Part shown: positions 23,731 through 27,215 of the stretch, one piece after another
Numbering within the stretch: the stretch's first letter is position 1
Layout of the letters: every line of letters starts with the position of its first letter
Assembly (NCBI RefSeq): GCF_014695385.1
Contig: NZ_JACJOD010000006.1
Coordinates: 124,001-188,000 of the forward strand
Source: Trichocoleus sp. FACHB-46
GTDB lineage: Bacteria; Cyanobacteriota; Cyanobacteriia; FACHB-46
DNA length: 64,000 bases
Reading direction: 5' to 3'
Translations under genes and position numbers: made by a program
The notes under the pieces: model-generated
Database searches by the model: none
What the model was told of the DNA's origin: nothing
What the model saw: the letters and a program-made list of their open reading frames with translations, nothing else

Positions 23731-24333
23731 TTAAGCCGCTGCTGCCAAGTTTTGAGAAACGAAGTCCCAGTTCACGACATTCTCTAAGAAGGCTTGAATG
23801 AAGTCAGGACGACGGTTTTGGTAGTCGAGGTAGTAGGCGTGCTCCCAAACATCCAAGGTTAAGAGGGGAGTTTGGCCGTGAGCGAGCGGGTTTTCAGCAT
23901 TGGGGGTCTTGGTGACCTTGAGGGTGCCGTTATCAAGCGCCAACCAAGCCCAACCGCTACCAAACTGAGTTGTGGCTGCGTTCTTGAACTCTTCAACGAA
24001 CTTATCGAAGCTGCCAAAGTCAGCATTGATTTTGTCCGATAGAGCACCGCTGGGAGAACCACCACCGCTGGGCTTCAGGCTGTGCCAAAAGAAGGTGTGG
24101 TTCCAGACTTGAGCCGCGTTGTTAAATACACCGACTTTATCTGGGTTTTTGAAGGTGGCCTGGATCACTTCTTCGAGAGATTTATCCGCCAACTCAGTGT
24201 CTTGGGTGAACTTGTTCAGGTTAGCCACGTAACCTGCGTGGTGCTTGTCGTGGTGGAACTCTAGGGTGCGTGCTGAGATATAAGGTTCTAGCGCGTTGTA
24301 GTCGTAAGGTAAAGGGGGAAGTTCAAAGGCCAT
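23731..24333 (-). CDS. sodB: Iron superoxide dismutase
   Basis: A 200-residue cytosolic enzyme that dismutates superoxide to peroxide and oxygen. The metal ligands are H27, H79, D161 and H165 (DVWEHAYY). The active-site Gln is Q75 in [11 protein letters not shown], the position that marks the Fe-dependent rather than Mn-dependent class. There is no signal peptide. The leader carries a Shine-Dalgarno GGAGAGGA whose sequence up to the ATG is complementary to the small RNA at 26299-26367, so translation is probably shut off in iron starvation. Confidence 0.97.
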
Positions 24334-24349
24334 GTGTTCAATCCTCTCC
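24334..24349 (-). promoter_or_regulatory. Predicted IsaR1 binding site over the sodB ribosome-binding site
   Basis: The mRNA reads GGAGAGGAUUGAACAC just before AUG. GAACAC pairs with GUGUUC and GGAGAGGA with UCCUCUCU of the predicted sRNA: 13 Watson-Crick pairs plus one G-U, with a 2-base bulge in the mRNA. It covers the Shine-Dalgarno completely. Confidence 0.75.
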
Positions 24350-24408
24350 GAATGGCTGGTGGAGCGATCGCGGGTAGCAAGCCCAGTTCAATCGGCGATC
24401 GCTTCTGT

Positions 24409-24537: not shown

Positions 24538-26085
24538 TTAAAGTTTTAAGTCGACGGCAATTCGATGGGCACAGGCAAAGCCAGAGAAAGCGACCGCATT
24601 GAGTCCTTGCCCCGGAAAAGTGCTGTCTCCCGCGCAGTACAGCCCTGGCACCGTAGTACGATTGAAGGGCATACCCAACAGTCCCAACAATTTGCGCTTA
24701 GGGATAGGGCCATAGGTGCCGTCTTGCCGCCCTAGGAAGCGACGATGAGTCCGAGGGGTGCCCACTTCTTGATAGTCCAGTGCTTGCTCTAACCCAGGAA
24801 AAATCTTCTCTAATCTTTGTATTAAAGTTGCTGCGGCTGCTTCTTTTTTTTCTTCGTAGTCACTGGGGGATAATCCTTGCCATTCCTCCAGGTAACTAGG
24901 GGTAAAGGTATGGATGATGTGATGACCTGGCGGCGCTAAGTCAGGGTCGAGCAAAGTTGGGATCGAGACAAAAATCGTACTTTGAGACTGCTCCATCCGC
25001 TGCCAGTCTTCCAATAGAATGTGATGGCATTCCGTACCAGTCGGCAAGGCTTCGGCTTTCACGCCTAAATGCAAGCTAAGGAAACTGGGAGATTTTTGAT
25101 AGCGTTGTTGCCACTTCTTCTCAGCAATGGGCATTTTATCGGTCGGCAGCAAATGCTCGAATGTATCCCAGCGGGTGGCATTAGAGACGATTCGCTTGGC
25201 TCGATAAACCTTGCCAGAAGCGAGTTCTACTCCGACTGCTCGGCCATTCTCCATCAAGATCTGCTTGACTCTGGCTTTATACTGAATCTGACTTCCCGCT
25301 TTCTCTAAACCTTCGACCAATTTTTGAGCAATTTGACCGACACCGCCTTTGGGGTAGTTGATGCCGCCATAGTGGCGATCGCTAAACACCATCCCCGCAT
25401 TGATCATCGGAGTTTTATCAGCCGGAACCACAGACCAGCAGTAGCACTCCATGTCGATAAATTTCAGCAGTGCCGGATCTTTGATGTAGCGGCGGGCAAT
25501 ATCTCCGACATTTTGAGGCAAATACTGGACCAATCCCAAACAAGCCAAGGGATGCTGAAAAAACACGCGCATCAAATAGCGAGGTTCTTCCAACGACAGC
25601 AAATCCATCGCATTGAGACAGTTAAAGACTTTCCAGCATTCATCGTAAAACTGCCGAATGCCCTCGCGCTCGTGGGGAAACTTGGCAATCAGTTCTTGCA
25701 AGAACTTCTCATAGTCTCGGTGAACTTTTAGATCTAACCCGTCGGGTAGGTGGTAGTGAATTTGCACTGGATCTGGAATCGTTTCCAGACTCATATCCAC
25801 CGCCTGCAAGGCTCGCGTCAGCAAATTTGTAGTGCCTTGCTGACCAAAGCCAAAAATCATCGAGGCTCCCACATCAAACCGATATCCAGCCCGCTCGAAA
25901 TAGCCAGCGCTCCCCCCAGGAATCAAGTAACGCTCTAAGACTAACACTTGAGCTCCTTTAGCCGCGAGTTGGGTCGCTGTTACTAAACCGCCAATCCCAG
26001 AGCCAATGACGATGGCATCAAATTCTGTGGACTCAGCAAAGGCACTTTGACCAGAAGCAACGGGAGATGTATTGAAAGCAGGCAT
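24538..26085 (-). CDS. crtH: Carotenoid (prolycopene) isomerase
   Basis: A 515-residue FAD enzyme of the CRTISO family that converts poly-cis lycopene to all-trans lycopene before cyclisation. [20 protein letters not shown] is the dinucleotide-binding fold, and [19 protein letters not shown] follows. [31 protein letters not shown] and the C-terminal [19 protein letters not shown] match CrtH rather than phytoene desaturases. It is associated with thylakoid membranes. The length is normal. The gene is divergent from upp, with the small RNA gene in between on its own strand. Confidence 0.93.
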
Positions 26086-26298: not shown

Positions 26299-26367
26299 AA
26301 AAAAGAGGGGACCAGTCTGCTGCCGCTAACCGATCCCACCTGCCGATCCTTAGAGAGGAGAACACTT
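26299..26367 (-). ncRNA. isaR1: Iron-stress small RNA, IsaR1 candidate
   Basis: A predicted RNA of about 69 nt lies in the crtH-upp gap, where no protein gene is credible. It has a sigma70 promoter overlapped by a Fur-box-like palindrome, a 5' single-stranded GUGUUCUCCUCUCU, a short middle part, and a terminator stem whose arms GGGAUCGGU and ACUGGUCCC pair over nine positions, followed by CUCUUUUUU. In Synechocystis IsaR1 is a Fur-repressed sRNA of similar size that lowers expression of iron-using proteins, including sodB. The CU-rich 5' region here is anti-Shine-Dalgarno and matches the sodB leader. The name rests on this architecture, not on an alignment. Confidence 0.78.
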
Positions 26368-26373
26368 GAAGTT

Positions 26374-26405
26374 AATATAATCTTATTGAAAATGATTGTC
26401 AATCA
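26374..26405 (-). promoter_or_regulatory. Promoter with Fur/Zur-type box for the small RNA
   Basis: Minus-strand TTGACA (26402-26397), a 17-base spacer, then TATATT (26379-26374). Two overlapping palindromic reads cover the -35: TGAAAATGATTGTCA (26387-26401), close to the Fur/Zur consensus TGATAATNATTATCA, and TGATTG-T-CAATCA (26393-26405). Repressor binding here would block polymerase. Fur is favoured over Zur because of the IsaR1 context. Confidence 0.75.
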
Positions 26406-26564: not shown

Positions 26565-27215
26565 ATGGCTTTGCAACTGCGAGTTTATGTTCCGCCCCAT
26601 CCTTTAATTAAGCACTGGCTCGCTGTAGCCCGTGACATTTCGACTCCCCCCGCCCTCTTTCGCAGTGCCATGACCGAGTTAGGGCGCTGGTTAACCTACG
26701 AAGCCATCCGGGACTGGTTGCCTACCGTAGAAACCACGGTGGAGACTCCTCTCAGTCCTTGTGCTGCCACGTTTGTAAATCCAGAAGTACCGGTTGTGGT
26801 AGTGCCGATTTTGCGGGCAGGTTTAGCACTATTAGATGGAGCGCAAGCTCTGTTGCCCTTGGCCTCAATTTATCATTTGGGTTTTGTGCGAGATGAAACT
26901 ACCCTAGAAGCCAGTTGCTATCTCAACAAGTTGCCAGAAGTATTTCCACCCGAAACCCATGTCTTAATTAGTGAACCGATGTTGGCAACGGGTGGCACCA
27001 TTATGTCAACAATGGCAGAATTGACCCGCCGAGGAATTGATCCAGCCTTCACCCGCATTATTTCTGTAGTGACGGCTCCTCCAGCTTTACAAAAGCTGAG
27101 CACGGCTTATCCCAGCTTGACGATCTACGCGGCTGCCATTGATGAAGGGACGAATAGCCACGGCTTCATTGTGCCAGGGCTAGGAGATGCGGGCGATCGC
27201 ACCTTTGGCACTTAG
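26565..27215 (+). CDS. upp: Uracil phosphoribosyltransferase
   Basis: A 216-residue salvage enzyme making UMP from uracil and PRPP. VVVVPILRAGLALLDGAQAL is the family hallmark. ISEPMLATGGTIMSTM is the PRPP loop (DPMLATGGS in most relatives; here SEPML). DEGTNSHGFIVPGLGDAGDR closes the uracil site. The start MALQLRVYVPPHPLIKHW is typical of cyanobacterial members. Glu replaces the usual acidic Asp of the PRPP loop. Confidence 0.93.
   Translation: MALQLRVYVPPHPLIKHWLAVARDISTPPALFRSAMTELGRWLTYEAIRDWLPTVETTVETPLSPCAATFVNPEVPVVVVPILRAGLALLDGAQALLPLASIYHLGFVRDETTLEASCYLNKLPEVFPPETHVLISEPMLATGGTIMSTMAELTRRGIDPAFTRIISVVTAPPALQKLSTAYPSLTIYAAAIDEGTNSHGFIVPGLGDAGDRTFGT

Follow-up and report, generated by a model that had tools for sequence, protein, structure and literature searches.

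In iron shortage, the Fur-controlled small RNA (sRNA) RyhB of Escherichia coli represses the iron superoxide dismutase (Fe-SOD) at the ribosome-binding region of its mRNA, and PrrF acts alike in Pseudomonas. The closest described cyanobacterial system is IsaR1, reportedly presented together with its sodB target by Georg et al. in 2017 (Curr Biol 27:1425) for Synechocystis sp. PCC 6803. The published sRNA has a length of 68 nt, is under Fur repression and regulates at the post-transcriptional level. Our preliminary description of the present locus had called sodB a reported IsaR1 target, and rightly so; in Synechocystis sodB is "unambiguously assigned" to this sRNA (PMC8136909), and it is named as a target in PMC11126600 as well (RyhB-sodB and PrrF are both mentioned in PMC3516471). 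The IsaR1-sodB link is already published for Synechocystis, and the present case is a new genome.

We analysed a window of 64,000 nucleotides (the whole stretch of DNA under study) from Trichocoleus sp. FACHB-46. The features used below are:

23731-24333, minus strand: sodB, Fe superoxide dismutase, 200 aa (open reading frame, NCBIfam, structure match)
24334-24349, minus strand: predicted IsaR1 site in the sodB leader, consisting of GGAGAGGA (Shine-Dalgarno), a UU bulge and GAACAC (direct reading, duplex energies and ranking, genome-wide pattern scan)
24334-24356, minus strand: extended predicted pairing region, mRNA -23 to -1 with sRNA nt 2-25 (duplex prediction with accessibility)
24538-26085, minus strand: crtISO, coding for a crtH-like carotenoid isomerase; it separates IsaR1 from sodB and is not predicted to be a target (TIGR02730, E 3e-292; leader pairing unremarkable)
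26299-26367, minus strand: IsaR1 homologue of about 68 nt, starting near 26366/26367 and ending in a U-run near 26299 (homologues from DNA search and covariance model; fold)
26299-26337, minus strand: predicted IsaR1 terminator hairpin and U-run (RNA fold)
26352-26365, minus strand: IsaR1 pairing arm GUGUUCUCCUCUCU, near-invariant in homologues (alignment)
26374-26402, minus strand: predicted IsaR1 promoter, TTGACA - 17 nt - TATATT, overlapped by the conserved, Fur-box-like TTGACAATCATTTTCAATAAG (promoter scan 11/12; conservation upstream of homologues; Fur control from the literature)
26565-27215, plus strand: upp, transcribed divergently from IsaR1 and not among its predicted targets (TIGR01091; synteny)

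Read directly from the minus strand, the sodB leader runs CCAGCCAUUC-GGAGAGGA-UU-GAACAC-AUG, with GGAGAGGAUUGAACAC occupying 24349 to 24334 exactly and abutting the ATG (24333-24331). The sRNA, read from 26367 to 26299 on the same strand, begins (A)AGUGUUCUCCUCUCUAAGG; its segment (A)A-GUGUUC-UCCUCUCU-AAGG contains the pairing arm (26365 to 26352). Six pairs join GAACAC to GUGUUC and eight join GGAGAGGA to UCCUCUCU, on either side of a 2-nt bulge (UU) in the mRNA. The outermost pair of the second arm is G-U, and the sum of 13 Watson-Crick pairs and one G-U given in the preliminary description is exact to the base. GGAGAGGA is the sodB Shine-Dalgarno and lies inside the duplex, which bears out the claim that the pairing covers it. 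Duplex prediction extends the pairing to sRNA nt 2-25 against mRNA -23 to -1; with sRNA nt 1-27 the hybrid energy is -27.8 kcal/mol, or -17.1 kcal/mol once the energy for opening the two RNAs is paid.

The best NCBIfam model for the sodB product is superoxide dismutase [Fe], although the score falls under that model's cut-off, and the nearest solved structure is 1my6, an Iron(III) SOD (E 6e-99). We found only one Fe/Mn-SOD gene here, whereas each of the other two genomes in the genus carries a further gene, MnSOD-like and 46-47% identical. With sodB repressed for lack of iron, this strain may have no Fe/Mn-SOD left, the Fe/Mn enzymes being the SOD family covered by the search.

On sequence grounds, we identify the predicted minus-strand sRNA at 26299-26367 as this organism's IsaR1, because its 5' core, promoter layout, terminator, position in the order upp/IsaR1/crtISO and agreement with the published 68 nt together point to it. 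The TTGACA-17-TATATT promoter puts the start at about 26366/26367, and upstream of homologues both the TTGACA and the putative Fur-box-like stretch are conserved. The terminator hairpin is seen in the RNA fold, whereas a simple terminator scan made no call there. No Rfam family, RyhB included, reached the gathering score anywhere in the window. Of 59 relatives, 23 gave a hit to the element in a DNA search. The covariance model derived from these homologues likewise picked out 23 of the 59, and also 31 of 50 named cyanobacterial genomes, including Synechocystis salina; IsaR1 is found in about 55 cyanobacterial genomes. When 34 negative genomes were searched again with laxer filters, no IsaR1 appeared; a promoter-plus-core pattern recovered all included IsaR1-positive control genomes and one further genome, G091. 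Across the alignment the 5' arm (AGUGUUCUCCUCUC) is near-invariant. The homology link to Synechocystis rests on Synechocystis salina rather than PCC 6803, where the covariance model gave a weak match (E 0.003); the matched sequence lies upstream of crtISO and shares the promoter, the arm and the terminator.

Three IsaR1 homologues carry a tandemly duplicated 5' pairing arm, two with a 15-nt unit (L183 in G059 and L185 in G065, Microseira wollei, both near position 1487) and one with a separate 21-nt unit (L024 in G024, near 1539). These are possibly sRNAs with two seeds.

The complementarity between sodB and IsaR1 exceeds chance. Leaders pairing equally well or better arose in just 6 of 2000 dinucleotide shuffles of the sodB leader for sRNA nt 1-27, the check set by the preliminary description, and in 5 of 2000 for nt 1-20; shuffling the sRNA instead gave 21/2000 and 26/2000, respectively. 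Alone, these shuffles are only moderately convincing, since pyrimidines dominate the sRNA arm and purines the leader. The real leaders of the same genome are a stronger control. From contig 6 we took about 800 kb, window included, called 631 long open reading frames and gave each start region a score that adds the energy needed to open the two RNAs to that of the hybrid. Among 630 leaders sodB ranks first for both total and hybrid energy (total -17.1, against a background mean of +1.2 and sd of 4.7); with every alternative start codon allowed it ranks 1/631 for total and 4/631 for hybrid energy. Set beside this margin over all other real leaders and nearly all shuffles, and with the retention of the site in IsaR1-positive cyanobacteria described below, the claim that the pairing supports both the sRNA and the target call stands. 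A duplex of the whole 69-nt sRNA (-58.3 kcal/mol, with 1/2000 leader shuffles as good) was set aside because the terminator hairpin would have to open.

The motifs are uncommon. Of the 630 leaders, 2 have GAACAC no more than 15 nt from the start and 2 have GAGAGGA. A scan of all 6.56 Mb of the genome for GAGAGGA-N(0-6)-GAACAC gave three hits, the first in the sodB leader, another in the IsaR1 gene (opposite strand) and the third within a coding sequence. A 13-nt perfect complement of the IsaR1 arm (GAGAGGAGAACAC) also lies at G000:C6:612533-612545 (G000 is the window's genome), in a TPR-like coding sequence and close to its 3' end, and is probably due to chance.

If the sRNA is IsaR1, other reported targets should also pair with it at their start regions. 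This was found for sufB (hybrid -31.0, total -19.7 kcal/mol), petF, the major ferredoxin (-27.2 and -15.8), chlN (-23.9 and -13.0) and acnB (-21.8 and -10.2), all four ranking in the top 1% of the background on total energy. The reported target petA came fifth of the 630 leaders without being sought, likewise in the top 1%. The sodB site is strong yet not the strongest, since sufB pairs better. The non-targets near these loci (upp, crtISO, ppk and orf68) have mean energies of only -3.8 to -5.3, and the crtISO and upp leaders fall outside the best 1% of background by total energy. A 2026 review (PMC13414033) gives upp and crtH as IsaR1 targets, for which we find no support, both leaders pairing poorly in this genome. 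As upp and crtH are the genomic neighbours of IsaR1 and pair poorly, the statement may be a citation error arising from a misreading of gene location.

Second in IsaR1 pairing energy is a ribosomal protein gene at G000:C6:497591-498004 (plus strand), with GGAGGAGAGAAG before its start. It looks like rpsI/uS9, a gene absent from the reported IsaR1 targets in the literature examined.

To see how the sodB site is distributed, we compared sodB leaders from cyanobacteria with IsaR1, cyanobacteria without detectable IsaR1 and non-cyanobacteria, collapsing similar leaders into clusters. Mean core-arm energies were -15.1 (33 clusters), -11.1 (27 clusters) and -9.2 kcal/mol (21 clusters), respectively, the IsaR1-positive group differing from the other cyanobacteria (p 3e-5) and from the non-cyanobacteria (p 3e-8; one-sided Mann-Whitney), although the genomes are phylogenetically related and clustering lowers their non-independence only partly. 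On the IsaR1-positive leaders, shuffled cores gave a mean of -7.8 (best of 500, -12.7), and the ribosomal anti-Shine-Dalgarno averaged about -9. The comparison shows that the predicted sodB site tracks IsaR1 presence across cyanobacteria. Within the genus both arms are retained around a bulge that is UU in G000 and G001 but UUA in G002. Where the arm itself varies (Synechocystis salina, G021, G037 and G009) the energies were mixed, and the covariation sought across genomes was nowhere convincing; compensatory change cannot be demonstrated because the sRNA arm hardly varies.

As the IsaR1 core resembles an anti-Shine-Dalgarno, any strong Shine-Dalgarno should pair with it to some extent, and the whole match might be a by-product of this resemblance (CUCCUCUC being the anti-SD-like stretch) rather than a specific site. 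GGAGAGGA is indeed a Shine-Dalgarno with which the 16S anti-SD pairs at about -11 kcal/mol, and AGAGG is found in 34 of 630 leaders. However, the IsaR1 core beats the anti-SD by about 7 kcal/mol, sodB outranks the 629 other leaders, and the GAACAC arm lies outside the Shine-Dalgarno. Rare as this arm is in the genome at large, it occurs within 15 nt of the start in 21 of 46 distinct sodB leaders with IsaR1, against 4 of 43 without detected IsaR1 (a count that places G091 among the negatives, though it proved to carry IsaR1) and 0 of 22 from non-cyanobacteria. We therefore regard simple mimicry as improbable.

It could also be argued that the leader motif is conserved for some other purpose, as a translation enhancer, for mRNA stability or for another regulator, and that the match to IsaR1 is secondary. 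In favour of this, 5 of 27 cyanobacterial leader clusters without detected IsaR1 are still at or below -15 kcal/mol. Yet the motif and IsaR1 co-occur across genomes, the same IsaR1 arm fits the start regions of sufB, petF and chlN in this genome, and sodB has been assigned to IsaR1 in Synechocystis; this explanation seems to us very unlikely.

The preliminary description placed regulator and target 2 kb apart. This is true, but among the genomes compared such spacing is confined to the window's genus, and the pairing is independent of it. IsaR1, crtISO and sodB lie on one strand in that order in all three genomes of the genus. Across 58 IsaR1 loci, crtISO is downstream on the same strand in 37 (91-690 nt from start to start), and upp is divergent in all 32 that have it. 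In other lineages orf68 and ppk are frequent neighbours of sodB, and upp and crtISO of IsaR1, two blocks that are joined here; neither crtISO nor upp was found within about 3 kb of sodB at any of 80 named sodB loci. In single-contig genomes the distance between IsaR1 and sodB is about 0.2 Mb (G020), 0.5 Mb (G031 and G044), 0.9 Mb (G057), 1.5 Mb (G024) or 2.6-2.9 Mb (G026), and the core energies at sodB range from -15.6 to -18.6. Since good sites are kept with the loci 0.2 to at least 2.6 Mb apart, the proximity is probably incidental. The conserved gene order in the genus might instead suggest that proximity itself matters, with locally made IsaR1, or readthrough from its promoter via crtISO, acting on sodB in cis. 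The distant yet well-matched pairs, the 0/80 count and the sRNA's own predicted terminator hairpin make this the least credible of the alternatives, and one we would give hardly any weight.

A separate idea is that the IsaR1 promoter has a second job, with read-through past the terminator leading to iron-responsive transcription of crtISO and, in this genus, perhaps reaching sodB. If true, one promoter would make both a repressor and part of its target mRNA. We think this unlikely, if somewhat less so than the alternatives above, and worth asking because the IsaR1-crtISO arrangement is conserved in most cyanobacteria examined.

Our preferred reading is that the sRNA is IsaR1, released from Fur in iron shortage, and pairs with the sodB ribosome-binding site to lower Fe-SOD and spare iron; we put its probability at roughly 0.9. 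When iron runs short, Fur would leave the IsaR1 promoter and IsaR1 would be made; its 5' arm (GUGUUCUCCUCUCU) would pair with the sodB mRNA from -23 to -1 and block 30S binding, translation of sodB would fall, and the lower Fe-SOD synthesis would spare iron. Judging from the established work on IsaR1, this chain is the most likely one. What the present analysis itself supports is the complementarity with its rank in the genome, the IsaR1 identity, the retention of the site in IsaR1-positive genomes and the fitting sites at other reported targets; transcription, Fur control, the block of translation and the direction of regulation are inferred. No principle is changed by the IsaR1-sodB case, and beyond confirmation it adds only the proximity seen in this genus and the conservation of the IsaR1-crtISO order. 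Nevertheless, sequence alone supports an iron-sparing IsaR1 regulon, sodB included, reaching well past Synechocystis, and the site offers a simple genomic test of which cyanobacteria would sacrifice Fe-SOD in iron shortage.

RyhB-sodB is a functional analogue only of IsaR1-sodB, RyhB being an unrelated, Hfq-dependent RNA. The likeness to IsaR1 of Synechocystis sp. PCC 6803, as described in PMC8136909, PMC6202907 and PMC7760821, is much closer: both are about 68 nt long, with a TTGACA promoter overlapped by a Fur-box-like stretch, a conserved 5' arm and, as in Synechocystis salina (L189) too, a downstream crtISO, and the predicted targets here include the same start regions (sodB, sufB, petF, chlN, acnB and petA). 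Arm and site differ slightly from those of Synechocystis (in Synechocystis salina the arm is GUGUUCUCUUCUC and the site GAGUAGAGAAU), and, unlike in Synechocystis, sodB here lies 2 kb from the sRNA gene.
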